From Burkholderiales bacterium (GTDB lineage: Bacteria > Pseudomonadota > Gammaproteobacteria > Burkholderiales > Burkholderiaceae_C), in contig RXJW01000033.1 of NCBI GenBank assembly GCA_003963005.1, positions 337 through 64,336 on the forward strand: a stretch of DNA of 64,000 bases. Reading direction: 5' to 3'. Below, in pieces: positions 4,307 through 9,722 of the stretch. Below the pieces are notes generated by a model. That model had not been told where the DNA came from, searched no databases, and saw only the letters and a list, made by a program, of their open reading frames with translations. The stretch's first letter is position 1; every line of letters begins with the position of its first letter. Position numbers and translations under genes: made by a program.

Positions 4307-5428
4307 TCAGCCCGGCGCGCCGGGCTTCGGGGCCTCGGCGGGCAGGGTCTGCAGCGTCTTCATGTCGTCCGTGGTCAAGGCCGTGACCCCCGAGGCGGCG
4401 GGCGCCGGCGACTTCATCAGCAACTCGGGATGGAACTTGGCCATCTCCGCGCCGTACAGCGGCTTGTGCGCGCCCTGGTGGCAGGTGGCGCAGTTCACCT
4501 TTGCAACGTCACCCCCCGGGCCGCGTCGGTTGGCGGGGAAGGTGTCGGTCAACGGCACCATGAACTCATTGTTGAGCTCCCGGGCCATGCGGATGCCGTA
4601 CCAGGCGGTCAGCCGCGGCGGCGAACTGTTCTCCCAGGACCCGAAGGCACGGGTGTTGTGGCATTGCGTGCAGTTCACGCCGAGCGACTTGGACATGTGC
4701 ACCATGAGCCCATAGGTCCACTCCGCCTGCTTCGTGGAGTGCCGGTTGTCAGCCGGCAGCGCCTGCGTGCCTGCCACGCGGATGCCTTCGGCGTTGAGCA
4801 GGAAGGGGGTGAACGGGTCGTTCGGCAAGGACGCGAGGCCCACCGTCTCGGCCGGCGCGTTCTGGCCGGCACGATCACCCAGGAAGTTGCTGCCGGCCTT
4901 GGGCGCCAGCGGCTGGAACCAGATCTCCTTGGGCACCGGCGCACCACGGTGGCAGGTGTAGCAGGTGACACCGGTCTTGCCGACATGGCGCTGCCAGTCC
5001 ACGTTGACCGTCTGCGTCATCTGCAGCATGCGCCGCGCCACGACCTTGGTGTAGAGCGTGTCTTCGGCGAAGTTCTGCACGTTGTGGCAGTAGGCACAGC
5101 CCTGCTTGGGCGCGACCCAGGCCGTCACGGCCGCCATCGTGCGGTTGAATTCGCCGACGCTCAGGTGCCCGAGCACCTTCACGTTCTGGTAGACCTGCGC
5201 GGCCTTGGGGCCATCCGGCGAGGCCGCCTCGAGCGGCGCCGGCGCCTGGTTGGCTGGCGCCTGCTCGGCCAGCGTGCGTGGGTTGTAGACCTGCACCATG
5301 GCCGTACCACGGTAGCCGCGCTGCACGGTCTCCACCGGCGGGCGCTCACAGCCCGCCAGCAGGCCCAGGACCAGGCCGAGGGTCAGCGTCAGGCCGCGCT
5401 GCAAGAGATGGGTTCGATTCATCGTCAT
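4307..5428 (-). CDS. pufC: Reaction-centre tetrahaem cytochrome subunit PufC
   Basis: A 373-residue lipoprotein that re-reduces the photo-oxidised special pair from the periplasmic side. Four CxxCH haem sites are seen at Cys111 (CAYCH), Cys156 (CYTCH), Cys253 (CTQCH) and Cys313 (CATCH). The N-terminus MTMNRTHLL plus a hydrophobic stretch ends in the lipobox LAGC with Cys27 as the lipidated residue. The ATG at 5428 was chosen because it fits the signal peptide. A longer reading from 5569 adds 47 codons with only about 53% G/C at third positions. A second ATG at 5422 is equally possible. It is the last gene of the puf operon, and its start overlaps the stop of the preceding small ORF. Confidence 0.95.
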   Translation of the reverse strand: MTMNRTHLLQRGLTLTLGLVLGLLAGCERPPVETVQRGYRGTAMVQVYNPRTLAEQAPANQAPAPLEAASPDGPKAAQVYQNVKVLGHLSVGEFNRTMAAVTAWVAPKQGCAYCHNVQNFAEDTLYTKVVARRMLQMTQTVNVDWQRHVGKTGVTCYTCHRGAPVPKEIWFQPLAPKAGSNFLGDRAGQNAPAETVGLASLPNDPFTPFLLNAEGIRVAGTQALPADNRHSTKQAEWTYGLMVHMSKSLGVNCTQCHNTRAFGSWENSSPPRLTAWYGIRMARELNNEFMVPLTDTFPANRRGPGGDVAKVNCATCHQGAHKPLYGAEMAKFHPELLMKSPAPAASGVTALTTDDMKTLQTLPAEAPKPGAPG

Positions 5429-5583
5429 ACCCCCGAATGTGTGTGCGACCGACTGGCCACGTCCCGTGGCGCCGTCATGGCGAAACCGTTCTGCATCGCC
5501 AGGAAGGCGCCGGTGTGGCACAACCCTTCGCGAAGCCCGTCCATCAGCTGGTGAATCCAGCTGGACCATGGCGCGCGGCTCAT
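5425..5583 (-). CDS. Small ORF coupled between pufM and pufC (unknown)
   Basis: A 52-residue ORF starting [20 protein letters not shown]. Its ATG overlaps the pufM stop (ATGA) and its TGA overlaps the pufC ATG at 5428. It thus fills the pufM-pufC gap exactly, in the manner of translationally coupled genes. About 80% of its codons end in G or C, against about 53% for the competing frame over the same DNA. No transmembrane helix, haem motif or signal peptide is evident; the middle ([16 protein letters not shown]) is mildly hydrophobic. I recognise no family. It could be a small reaction-centre accessory peptide, or a leader ORF that couples pufC translation to pufM. Confidence 0.5.
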
Positions 5584-6560
5584 GGCTGCACCGCCGGCAC
5601 GACCAGGGCCGGATCAGGCACCGGCGGGAAGACGGCCGGGTAAGCCGGCGCGATGTGGTGCTTGACGCCCCACAGGTACCAGTTGTCCACCACGGTGCCG
5701 GTCAGCAGGATGCCGATGCCGCCCGTCAGCGGGCACAGCACCGCGAACCACCAGGCCCAGCGGTGGATGGACTCCATCGTCGCGTTGAAGCCCATCGTCC
5801 AGCGCCAGAACAGGGCGGCCCGCTCGCTTGCCGTGCCGCGGTCGGTGATCTGCTCGATCTCGCGCTCGCCGCCGAAGCGGCTCACCGCCAGGATGGTGGC
5901 GCCGTGCATCGCGAACAGCAGCGTGCTGCCGTACAGGAACGCGATGCTCAGCATGTGGAAGGGGTTGTAGAACAGGTTGCCGTAGCGCAGCGAGAACGCA
6001 GCCGTCCAGTCCAGGTGCGGGAAGAGCCCGAAGGGCACGGCCTCGCCCCAGCTGCCCATCAGCAGCGGACGGATGAAGCCCAGCACGAGGTAGAGCCAGA
6101 TCGCCGCTGCAAAGGCCCAGGCCACGTGCGTGCCCATGCCGAGCTTGCGTGCCCGTCGGTACATGCGCACCCACCACAGCAGGATGGATGCCGTCAGGAA
6201 CAGGCCCGCCAGCAGCCACCAGCCCCCCTGGTTGAGCGGCGGCAGGTGCAGGCCGTAAGACGGCGGCGGCGGCTCCAGCGCCAGCCAGGGCAACTGGCGG
6301 ACGAACTGGATCGGGTCCCAGCCCACGGAGGCCCACATGTTCAGGCCGATGATCTCGATGGCGATGAAGCCGCAGATCAGCGAGCAGATGCCCAGCCACC
6401 CCAGGTAGATGGGGCCGAGCTGGGCGTCACCGAGGCGCCCGAGCAGGTGCACGTGGGCGGAACCGCCGACGCGCTCGTATTCATCCCGCCCCAGCGGCAC
6501 GCCCGGGTAGGACGGTGCAGCCACCTGCACGCTGGTGAAGAGGTTCTGGTACTCAGCCAT
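5580..6560 (-). CDS. pufM: Reaction-centre M subunit
   Basis: A 326-residue membrane protein binding bacteriochlorophyll, bacteriopheophytin and quinone in the reaction centre. It starts [13 protein letters not shown] and has five transmembrane segments. The helix D region [18 protein letters not shown] and the later MHGATILA and [11 protein letters not shown] carry the histidines expected for special-pair and iron ligands. A good ribosome site (GAGGAG) lies before the ATG, 22 bases after the pufL stop. The C-terminus is slightly extended ([14 protein letters not shown]), as in species with a bound tetrahaem cytochrome. Confidence 0.97.
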
Positions 6561-6582: not shown

Positions 6583-7407
6583 TCACTTCCAGACCGGCAG
6601 GTTGAGCCACCAGCTCCACCATTCCGGCCAGCCTCGCGTCCAGAAGGGCCCGCTGATGACGATGCACACGGCGCTCCAGAACCCGGCCGAGAGGGCGAGG
6701 AAGAGACCGAGGCGGTGGATGCCCAGCGTGCCGATCGAGTAGCCGATGGCGTCGCGGAAGAAGGTGTTCTCATGCTCGGGCGTCTTGACGACTTCACCCG
6801 GCGCCGGGTTGGTGGCCGACAGGATCAGGGCCCCGTGCAGCGACAGCGCGAAGGTGGTGGCGAAGAAGAAGCTCACCGCCAGCATGTGCGCCGGGTTGTA
6901 GTGGAAGTGCAGGTACTGGTAGCCCGTGTTGGACACCCAGTCCAGGTGACTGATGATCCCGTACGGGAAGCCATGCCCCCAGGCGCCCATCAGCACCGGC
7001 CGCACGACGACGAGCGTCACGTAGGCCAGGATGGCGACCGAGAACGCGAAAGGCACGTGGTAGCCCATGCCGAGCTTGCGGCAGATCTCCACCTCTCGCA
7101 GCGCCCACGAGACGAAGGCACCGATGGCACAGACCGTGATGAGCTGCCACAGGCCGCCCTCCATCAACGGAGCCATGCCGAGGCCGTATTTCAGGTCCGG
7201 TGGCGCGATGCTGATCTGCCAGAGATTCCAGGTGCCGCCTTGCGACGCGCCCCAGACGATCAGCAGGGTCCCGACCAGCGAGAAGAACGCCGTCGTGACG
7301 CCGAAGAAGCCGACGTAAAAAGGCCCGACCCAGAAGTCGAACAGGTCGCCTCCCAGCAGGGTTCCGCCGCGTACGCGGTACTTCCGTTCGAAGTTCAGCA
7401 TGGCCAT
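6583..7407 (-). CDS. pufL: Reaction-centre L subunit
   Basis: A 274-residue reaction-centre L protein starting [20 protein letters not shown], the usual N-terminus of the family. Five transmembrane helices and the segment [20 protein letters not shown] carry the accessory-pigment and special-pair histidines. The start at 7407 is chosen over an in-frame ATG 20 codons upstream because it matches the family and follows GAGGTGG by five bases. It pairs with PufM to bind the cofactors of charge separation. A 105-base spacer with a hairpin separates it from pufA. Confidence 0.97.
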
Positions 7408-7512: not shown

Positions 7513-7698
7513 CTACTTCGGCGCCGCAGCCGGCAAAGCCGAGTTCTGAACCACCGGCTTGGTGTTCGGACCATCGAGCCAGTTGTACTTGCTGGTACTC
7601 AGCAGCACGAAGTGAATCACCAGTGCCAGTACGAACAAGAAAGCGAACAACGCGACCAGCGCTCTGCGCGGGTCGAACAGCAACCAAATCTTCCACAT
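7513..7698 (-). CDS. pufA: LH1 antenna alpha polypeptide
   Basis: A 61-residue core-antenna alpha chain: [20 protein letters not shown], then the transmembrane helix with the bacteriochlorophyll-ligating His in VIHFVLLST, then a short periplasmic tail YNWLDG and a Pro/Ala-rich end. The ATG at 7698 follows AGGAGAT. The stop of the upstream small gene lies 11 bases before it, so the two are probably translated together. Confidence 0.96.
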
Positions 7699-7709
7699 GC
7701 TTGGATCTC

Positions 7710-7934
7710 CTAGTTCAGGTGGGACATGAAGGTGTAAACACCCGATCTCACACCCTTGATCAGCGATTTCTCGCCCTCCGCACCCGGCAACCACGTGCGC
7801 CACTTCAGGAACAGCGCCTGGGCGGCGAGCGCGATCAAGAGCACGAAGACAAAACACACGAGGAACAGGGCCTCGTAGGTTTTGGAGTCCTGCGCGGCCG
7901 GGTGGCTCGCTGGGACGGTCGTGATCTGTGCCAT
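7710..7934 (-). CDS. LH1-beta-like membrane protein lacking BChl-ligating His
   Basis: A 74-residue single-helix protein inserted between pufB and pufA. It aligns without a gap to PufB over all 49 PufB residues (12 identities, including Phe24, Phe28, Ala35, Ala38, Leu41, Trp45, Arg46, Trp48 and Leu49). Both antenna histidines are replaced: His21 by Glu21 and His39, the Mg ligand, by Gln39. A 25-residue tail beginning PGAEGEKS and ending MSHLN follows the beta-type WRTWL end. The ATG at 7934 follows AGAGAGG. It looks like a duplicated beta subunit turned into a pigment-poor structural subunit of the LH1 ring, analogous in idea to PufX or other small LH1 accessory proteins. Function is inference; I know no name for it. 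Confidence 0.85.
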
Positions 7935-7970: not shown

Positions 7971-8120
7971 TCAGAGCCAGGGACGCCACACCCACACCAG
8001 CACATGGGCGACCACGGCAACCACCGTGAAGCCAATGAAGCTGGACATGAAGATGCCGTGGAATTCCCTGGCTTCGTTCTCAGTCAGCCCGGACAACGAG
8101 CCTGATCTGTTATCAGCCAT
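7971..8120 (-). CDS. pufB: LH1 antenna beta polypeptide
   Basis: A 49-residue core-antenna beta chain, starting [20 protein letters not shown]. It contains the conserved pair His21 (EFH) and His39 (VVAHVLVW), the latter binding the B880-type bacteriochlorophyll, and ends in the typical WRPWL. The ATG at 8120 follows GAGGAG. It is the first puf gene after bchZ, and a 36-base spacer leads to the beta-like small gene. Confidence 0.97.
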
Positions 8121-8231: not shown

Positions 8232-9722
8232 TCATGCGGCCGCTCCAATGGCTGCGGCCGCCAACTGGCGAGCACGGCCTTCCAGATCCTGCGCATCCAC
8301 CGCGGCGGCACCGCGCGCCCGCGCGGTGGCTTCGGCCTGGTCGCGCAGCCGCTTGGCCGAAGAGATGCGCACCAGCACCGGCTGGGCCTCCAGCAGTTCG
8401 TCCAGCAGCGCGCGCGCCTCGTCACTCCAGGGCAACTCGGCCAGCGCGCGCGCAGGTGTGGGGTCGACCCGGTCCATGTCGGTGCCCAGCGGCAGGATGT
8501 GGAAGAGCGCGTCGAACAGCGCGTTGCAGAACTCCTGCACGAGGTAGGTCGCGCCGGCGTAGCCCATGAAGGGCGTGCCGGTGGCGCGACGCACGATGGC
8601 GCCGGGGAAGGAGGCGGGAATGAACGTGGGCCGCATCGGGCCGGTGGTGGCCGCCTCGGCCAGGTACATCCGCTCGTTGAAGCTGCCGTAGAGCACGAGC
8701 GGCGGCTTGTCATGAACCAGAGCGCGCACGGCGGCGTTGTCGGTCTTCTGCCCCGGCTTGCGGGCCACGGCGAAGTGGCAGGGCAAGCCGAGCTCGGTTT
8801 CCAGGAAGTGCCGCACGCCGCGGGCATAGGTTTCGCTGGCGACGATGCCGAAGCTGGCGGTGGCGAAAAAGTCCTGCGTGACGGAGCGCCAGAGGTCCCA
8901 GAGCGGCTTGATGGTGGTGTGCTTCTCGCGCTCGATGAAAGGCTCGGGGTCCAGGTGCAGGAGCCGCCCCAGTTCACGCAGGAAAGCGGTGGTGCTGTGC
9001 AGACCGATGGGGGCCTGCAGCCAGGGGCGGTCCAGCGCCTCGCACAGCATCTGGCCGAACTCGCGGTACAGGCAGATGTTGACGTCAGCATCCACCAGGC
9101 GCGGCACATCGGTCAGGTGGCTGCCCAGCGGGAAGACCAGGTTGATCTCGGCCCCGATGCCCTCCACCAGGCGACGGATCTCGTGCAGGTCGCTCGCGCT
9201 GTTGAACTGGCCGTAGCAGGGGCCGATGAGATTGACGCGCGGCTTCTCGCCGGCCGGGCGCTCGGCGAACGGCGTTCGCGCCGGCACCTTGCGCAGGCCG
9301 TGTTCGCTCCACAGCCAGAACATGGCGCGGTTGGCGCACTGCCATTGGTCTTCGTCGATGGTGCGCGGCAGGAAGCGCGCGATCGTCGTGCCCTCAGGCG
9401 TGACGCCGCCGCCGATCATCTCGGCGATGGACCCGGTCACGACGACGCTGGGCAGATCGGGGTCGAGCGCGGCATGTGCGCGCTTCATGCTGCCTTCGGT
9501 GCCTTCGCGGCCGAGCTGTTCCTCGGCCAGGCCGGTCACGACGATCGGCAGCTCGTGCGGCGGCAGCGCGTCGGTGTAGTGCAGCACCGAGGTGACGGGC
9601 AGGTTCTCGCAGCCCACCGGGCCGTCGATGATGACCTGCAAGCCCTTGACGGCCGTGAATACGTAGACCGCGCCCCAGTAGCCGCCGGCGCGGTCGTGAT
9701 CCAGCACGAAGTTCAGGTTCAT
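8232..9722 (-). CDS. bchZ: Chlorophyllide a reductase subunit Z
   Basis: A 496-residue subunit of the nitrogenase-like chlorophyllide a oxidoreductase (BchXYZ), which reduces ring B in bacteriochlorophyll synthesis. The start [20 protein letters not shown] and the segment [19 protein letters not shown], with a cluster-binding Cys, are typical of BchZ. Its ATG overlaps the bchY stop (ATGA). It is the last bch gene before the puf genes in the superoperon. Confidence 0.97.

Follow-up and report, generated by a model that had tools for sequence, protein, structure and literature searches.

ORF74, a conserved histidine-less relative of LH1-beta in the puf operon of phototrophic Burkholderiales, is a putative accessory subunit of the RC-LH1 core

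Results

ORF74 lies between pufB and pufA

We analyzed a 64,000-nucleotide stretch of a Burkholderiales genome, hereafter called the window, whose minus strand carries bchZ, pufB, ORF74, pufA, pufL, pufM, and pufC in this order. ORF74 (7710..7934, minus strand) is an intact frame of 74 codons plus a stop, and its translation runs from MAQITT to MSHLN. On one side of it lies pufB (7971..8120, minus strand), which encodes a short LH1-beta of 49 residues with His21 and His39, and on the other pufA (7513..7698, minus strand), which encodes an LH1-alpha of 61 residues. Both were assigned by Pfam/NCBIfam family matches, and they are the two PF00556 genes of the window's own genome. Next come pufL (6583..7407, minus strand), the gene for the reaction-center L subunit with the start MAMLNF, recognized from gene order and similarity to annotated PufL; pufM (5580..6560, minus strand), for the M subunit; and pufC (4307..5569, minus strand), for the reaction-center cytochrome (PF02276), whose true start may lie further in. 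The upstream neighbor of pufB is bchZ (8232..9722, minus strand); this name and those of pufL and pufM are our own reading. Between bchZ and pufB, the position of PufQ in other phototrophs, the window has no ORF. ORF74 and pufA are separated by 11 nt, and at this junction (7699..7712, minus strand) the ORF74 stop codon, TAG, runs into and forms the pufA ribosome-binding site (TAGGAG). Among the plasmid records searched there was no match. We note that the window's own genome shows no match to ribosomal protein L2 (PF00181) despite 99% completeness, while 13 of 14 control genomes do; a stretch may be absent from it, and L2 could not serve as a yardstick of codon bias.

The reading frame itself is already in print. 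It was named ORF74 in Roseateles depolymerans 61A, with a citation of Suyama et al. 2002, in a paper whose accessible text reports its co-transcription with pufB and pufA on a major 1-kb mRNA and a residual transcript level of 2.34% in a sigma-factor mutant (PMC10037100, Table 2). In R. depolymerans DSM 11813 (locus L024), we found a 74-aa ORF between pufB and pufA that is 80% identical to that of the window; judged by its place and length, it is presumably the published ORF74. The literature searched, which took in few subscription journals and was accessible in part, mentions this ORF74 in that one paper and holds no statement on its kinship, its missing histidine, or its role.

ORF74 is a relative of LH1-beta, tail included

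A first-pass annotation of the sequence had aligned ORF74 without a gap to all 49 residues of PufB, with 12/49 identities and a shared WR-x-WL end. We confirmed this alignment and the two histidine losses read from it: Gln39 of ORF74 (codon at 7818..7820, minus strand) is the counterpart of the BChl-ligating His39 of PufB, and Glu21 stands in place of His21. Shuffled sequences average a BLOSUM62 score of −42; the gapless alignment scores 59 (z 7.5), a value reached by 0 of 20,000 shuffles, and the next best offset scores −3. Shuffling the N-terminal and transmembrane parts separately gave a z of 6.9, again with 0 of 20,000 as good. By BLASTP the two proteins match with an E value of 0.015, and a PufB profile scores the ORF74 copies at 14 to 36 bits or below its threshold. 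Profile against profile, ORF74 matches the short beta with a probability of 97.1 and a score of 51 (shuffle maximum, 23). For long LH1-beta the probability is 99.4 and the score 104, compared with 10 for the reversed profile and at most 21 in 40 block-shuffled controls. No Pfam or NCBIfam family, including PF00556 and NF040862, matched ORF74 at E ≤ 10. These comparisons support the proposal that ORF74 is an LH1-beta relative, with a likely origin in LH1-beta; the absence of the defining histidine keeps it out of LH1-beta proper.

The 25-residue tail (codons 50 to 74, 7713..7787, minus strand) had been described as new, which is wrong: it is the counterpart of the tail of long LH1-betas of other bacteria, and PufB is the copy without a tail. 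The nearest solved chains to ORF74 are LH1-betas (8z81_B, with an E value of 3.5e-15, 9m8m_B, and 7xxf_B), and their matches extend as far as profile positions 63, 61, and 72, respectively, which lie within the tail. With a profile of the tails only, ORF74 matched four Burkholderiales long betas with a probability of 98.2.

ORF74 is the common state among phototrophic Burkholderiales

An ORF74 match was found in 13 of 60 genomes (the window's own, counted among the 13, and 59 relatives). Scanning species genomes, we obtained 24 loci, of which one (L039) was judged spurious, with no adjoining puf gene, and one (L038) is cut at a contig end; the loci include Roseateles, Pelomonas, Paucibacter, Pseudorhodoferax, Pseudacidovorax, and MAGs labeled Rubrivivax or Methylibium. 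We also drew a sample not chosen by ORF74, the 42 of 349 genomes of the order with the PufC cytochrome, own genome included, of which 40 were readable; the contigs of G182 and G336 end before pufB. ORF74 is present in 32 of the 40, again with the own genome included. Twenty-eight of the 32 were read at operon level, among them G087, whose contig does not carry pufA, and four (G179, G216, G247, and G365) are profile hits alone. In five of the 40 genomes the single beta is long and His-bearing and ORF74 is absent (Type B); three others have an ORF in the place of PufQ and a short pufB, likewise without ORF74 (Type C). A gene between pufB and pufA, two genes that the first-pass annotation had described as normally adjacent, is thus the common state in this order.

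At the level of operons, we read 74 loci, of which 71 have antenna genes and represent 59 distinct operons: 51 with ORF74, five of Type B, and three of Type C. Rows were lost where a contig end cut the locus (L015 and L038) or antenna hits were missing (L049, L053, and L054). ORF74 follows pufB in 51/51 distinct operons and precedes pufA in 50/50 with pufA on the stretch, and His21 and His39 are both present in PufB in 59/59. The Type B beta has 76 to 78 residues (that of L040 ends ...HILAWQWRPWLPGSGGYTSMIDGVKAAVNSFMPYVFMA) and extends 27 to 28 residues past the WxxW motif, compared with 1 to 3 for PufB in all 51 ORF74 operons. A short beta was found in the ORF74 and PufQ-position genomes wherever the operon was read, and the long beta (five genomes) never occurs together with ORF74 or a PufQ-position gene (35 genomes), in raw counts that ignore kinship. 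Elsewhere there are phototrophs with a short beta that are not known to have PufQ. One genus, g54, has both states, with ORF74 in G110, G153, G192, and G377 and the long beta in G064, G289, and G319. The gap to pufA is 10 to 12 nt in 40/50 distinct ORF74 junctions and in 5/5 long-beta junctions. Outside the order, 15 of 17 profile-found loci have a long beta, one a short beta, and one an odd one, in a set biased by the search. Taken together, these data suggest that a long beta probably gave rise to two proteins, a PufB that is short and binds pigment and an ORF74 that bears the tail and lacks the histidine.

In a 60-row tree with 26 of the 36 ORF74 rows (10 near relatives were left out) and without Rhodobacter-type PufQ, 25 of the 26 ORF74 rows group together in a single clade (98/94). 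A branch (96/91) leads to the PufQ-position proteins, and this clade lies on its beta side. The ORF74 of L048 falls outside this clade and the basal forks are open; a single clade of all 26 was not rejected (p 0.181). A PufL tree was too poorly resolved to place gains and losses of ORF74.

Three further features of these loci may be recorded here. The interval between pufB and pufA in the Type C operons (L050 to L052) is 73 nt, about the length of a lost tail. In a Methylibium MAG, L031:7373-7519 (minus strand) is a second beta-like antenna gene near the puf operon, 37% identical to PufB and on the strand opposite the operon; it is perhaps an LH2 beta. Outside the order, pufB of L089 belongs to an operon of alphaproteobacterial type and encodes a long beta in which Asn stands in place of His21 (EFNKIF) and His39 is kept.

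Purifying selection on ORF74 is strongest in the tail

The first-pass annotation had proposed asking whether homologues are intact or degraded and under what selection; they comprise 51 distinct intact copies under purifying selection. P50, G51, and V62 are each present in 51/51 distinct copies, and A35, W45, R46, W48, V66, Y67, and S71 each in 50/51. Position 39 is Gln in 45 copies, Thr in two, Ser in two, Leu in one, Gly in one, and His in none. A dN/dS value was obtained for 18 of 19 ORF74 pairs, which are non-independent, and lies between 0.07 and 0.41. In 105 likewise non-independent pairs of 15 operons, pN/pS falls from 0.597 in residues 1 to 17 to 0.363 in residues 18 to 49 and 0.109 in residues 50 to 74, and synonymous change peaks in the tail (0.507). 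The tail thus combines the lowest pN/pS with the highest synonymous change, which places the constraint on the protein. Over the whole gene, ORF74 (0.301) is looser than pufB (0.221) and pufA (0.167). Purifying selection therefore acts on ORF74, most strongly in its tail. The shuffle controls, the 51 distinct intact copies, and pN/pS rule out a chance ORF or a decaying copy.

Within the helix, conservation among 25 ORF74 proteins less than 75% identical favors one face, −40 degrees from residue 39, as strongly as in 0.8% of shuffles. The conserved face of the PufB helix, at −55 degrees, is on the same side (1.3% of shuffles as strong). With residue 39 masked, 1.8% of shuffles matched the ORF74 signal, and with residues 35 and 39 masked, 6%. 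An AlphaFold model of the ORF74 monomer has predicted helices at residues 12 to 48 and 57 to 73, with a mean pLDDT of 67 and low confidence in the tail; a Foldseek search with this weak model gave one match, with an E value of 4.7. Taken as a helix, the tail of the window's ORF74 is amphipathic (1% of shuffles as strong); the corresponding values are 4 to 11% in three other ORF74 proteins and 0.6% in that of L048.

Discussion

ORF74 is a real, conserved, and selected gene. We propose that its product serves the RC-LH1 core as a putative accessory subunit, beta-like and poor in pigment, a reading drawn from sequence comparisons to which we give about an even chance. The profile match to long LH1-beta, the match between the tails, and the LH1-beta identity of the nearest solved chains argue for it, as do the mutual exclusion of the long beta with ORF74 or a PufQ-position gene, the short ends of PufB, and the shared spacing of the junction with pufA. 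It is further consistent with a helix face like that of PufB, with the low pN/pS of the tail, and with the reported co-transcription with pufB and pufA (PMC10037100, in its accessible text). Several results count against it: the weak kinship with the short PufB by BLASTP and by the PufB profile, the fall of the helix-face signal once residues 35 and 39 are masked, the weak monomer model and the poor Foldseek match, the complementarity counts, which ignore kinship, together with the poorly resolved PufL tree, and the position of the L048 protein outside the ORF74 clade together with the AU test described below. The first-pass annotation had likewise interpreted ORF74 as a structural subunit, perhaps one that opens or caps the ring; of this interpretation our analysis supports the beta kinship and the loss of histidine, with purifying selection in place of decay. 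It left out the rival of a role like that of PufQ.

On our reading, a long-tailed, pigment-binding beta gene would have been duplicated, after which pufB, one of the copies, would have retained the pigment site without the tail, and ORF74, the other, the tail without the histidine. The ORF74 product would insert in the membrane as a beta chain does, with its kept face packing against PufA or the reaction center and its amphipathic C-terminal helix lying on the periplasmic side. A slot of this kind, lacking the His ligand, would be pigment-poor and could stabilize, cap, or open the ring. Caution is called for in describing ORF74 as pigment-free, since chlorophyll in plant antennae can have Gln as its ligand and 45 of 51 copies have Gln39. 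The six copies with Thr, Ser, Leu, or Gly at this position argue that a ligand is not essential.

The main rival is that ORF74 does the work of PufQ: its product would be a small membrane protein that stays outside the finished ring, directs pigment precursors or assists assembly, and is encoded downstream rather than upstream of pufB. In Rhodobacter sphaeroides, PufQ is reported to act at the heme/BChl branchpoint via ferrochelatase (PMC5725709, accessible text). We consider this role unlikely for ORF74, and the evidence bearing on it is divided. The ORF74 profile matches proteins that other phototrophs encode in the PufQ position, between bchZ and pufB, with a probability of 98.3 and a score of 73 (shuffles ≤27), a grouping of ORF74 with them as one clade was not rejected by the AU test (p 0.405), and the combination of a conserved helix and C terminus with a variable N terminus is as reported for PufQ in the same paper. 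Among 45 genomes of the order, only the three of Type C give a strong signal for a PufQ-position gene, all of them without ORF74, and none has both genes. With the tails alone, however, ORF74 matches the PufQ-position proteins with a probability of 19, versus 98 for the Burkholderiales long betas. Its gene follows pufB in every distinct operon, whereas that of PufQ lies between bchZ and pufB, and the five Type B genomes have neither ORF74 nor a PufQ-position gene. Compared with Rhodobacter-type PufQ, ORF74 does no better than shuffles (score, 22.2, versus up to 24.5 in shuffles; probability, 25.6, versus up to 43.3). Nor does PF05398 match ORF74, which counts little because it also misses most PufQ-position proteins. 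Among the readings that we rejected is ORF74 as PufQ proper. The PufQ-position proteins themselves match Rhodobacter-type PufQ with a probability of 42 or 56, depending on direction (shuffle maximum, 9). We note separately that those of L083, L094, L095, L098, L099, and L050 to L052 match long LH1-beta with a probability of 98.7 (shuffle maximum, 33.5), so that proteins in this position may have branched off from LH1-beta long ago.

It is distinctly improbable, in our judgment, that ORF74 is a gamma-like or peripheral helix, with one copy beside many or all alpha-beta pairs on the outside of the ring, tightening it or filling its pores. Its place on the major pufB-ORF74-pufA mRNA (PMC10037100, accessible text) would suit such a stoichiometry, as would predicted ribosome-binding sites that are not weaker than those of pufB and pufA (49 operons; Wilcoxon p 0.54 and 0.12, respectively; the pufB value of L064 is faulty and spoils the pufB mean). 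The idea that ORF74 has weaker ribosome-binding sites was accordingly dropped, as no difference was seen in the 49 operons. Yet gamma chains are absent from the sequence matches of ORF74 at E ≤ 10, its conserved face is still that of beta, towards residue 39, and not a new one, and its synonymous sites diverge beyond those of pufB in 101/105 pairs, which may mean weaker expression. The formation of the pufA ribosome-binding site by the ORF74 stop codon would also fit a translation device, in which translating ORF74 mainly serves to couple ribosomes from pufB to pufA, or to delay them on the way, and so sets the alpha-beta ratio, its protein being of little use. We regard this as very improbable indeed: it is the amino acids that are strongly constrained while synonymous change is free, above all in the tail, and the helix has a conserved face.

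To return to an accessory subunit of the core, a more specific version can be put forward tentatively, and we hold it to be doubtful: a bifunctional long LH1-beta may have been split in most phototrophic Burkholderiales, with the His-less, tail-bearing beta serving as a putative pigment-poor quinone gate or cap in or on the ring, and the PufQ-position proteins having branched earlier from that beta stock. The passage of quinone through the LH1 fence and the capping or stabilizing of RC-LH1 have been solved group by group with different small helices. If the proposal is true, ORF74 would be an independent answer to the opening or closing of LH1, beside PufX, protein W, PufY, and gamma, made from the antenna's own beta gene. 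Most of the phototrophic Burkholderiales sampled carry this conserved candidate helix, which is represented by no PDB chain searched. The locus looks like a case in which nature has divided one protein into two, one part binding pigment and the other carrying the tail. The occurrence of both states in one order, even in one genus (g54), makes the role of the beta tail testable by swaps. Kinship of the PufQ-position proteins with LH1-beta would, in turn, bear on the origin of PufQ.

Among known systems, the long-tailed LH1-betas (8z81_B, 9m8m_B, and 7xxf_B, and those of L040 to L042, L044, and L045) share homology with ORF74 over the whole length, tail included; they differ from it in that they keep both histidines and are the sole beta of their operon. 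PufQ and the PufQ-position proteins are, like ORF74, small, His-less, single-helix proteins of the puf operon, and the PufQ-position proteins also match it by profile, whereas gene place and tail set PufQ apart and the match to Rhodobacter-type PufQ does not go beyond shuffles. PufX, protein W, PufY (protein U), and LH1-gamma are small non-antenna helices that shape LH1 and are reported to open, close, or stabilize rings (PMC9788563 and PMC9640540, accessible text). None of them is found among the 46 PDB sequences that match ORF74 at E ≤ 10, and an identity of ORF74 with any of them by sequence was rejected. PufX is encoded after pufM in operons without pufC, whereas ORF74 precedes pufA and pufC is present; according to the accessible part of a review, no known phototroph has both pufX and pufC (PMC12654162). 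ORF74 may work in a manner analogous to these four helices, and it differs from them in its beta stock and in the presence of pufC in its operon.
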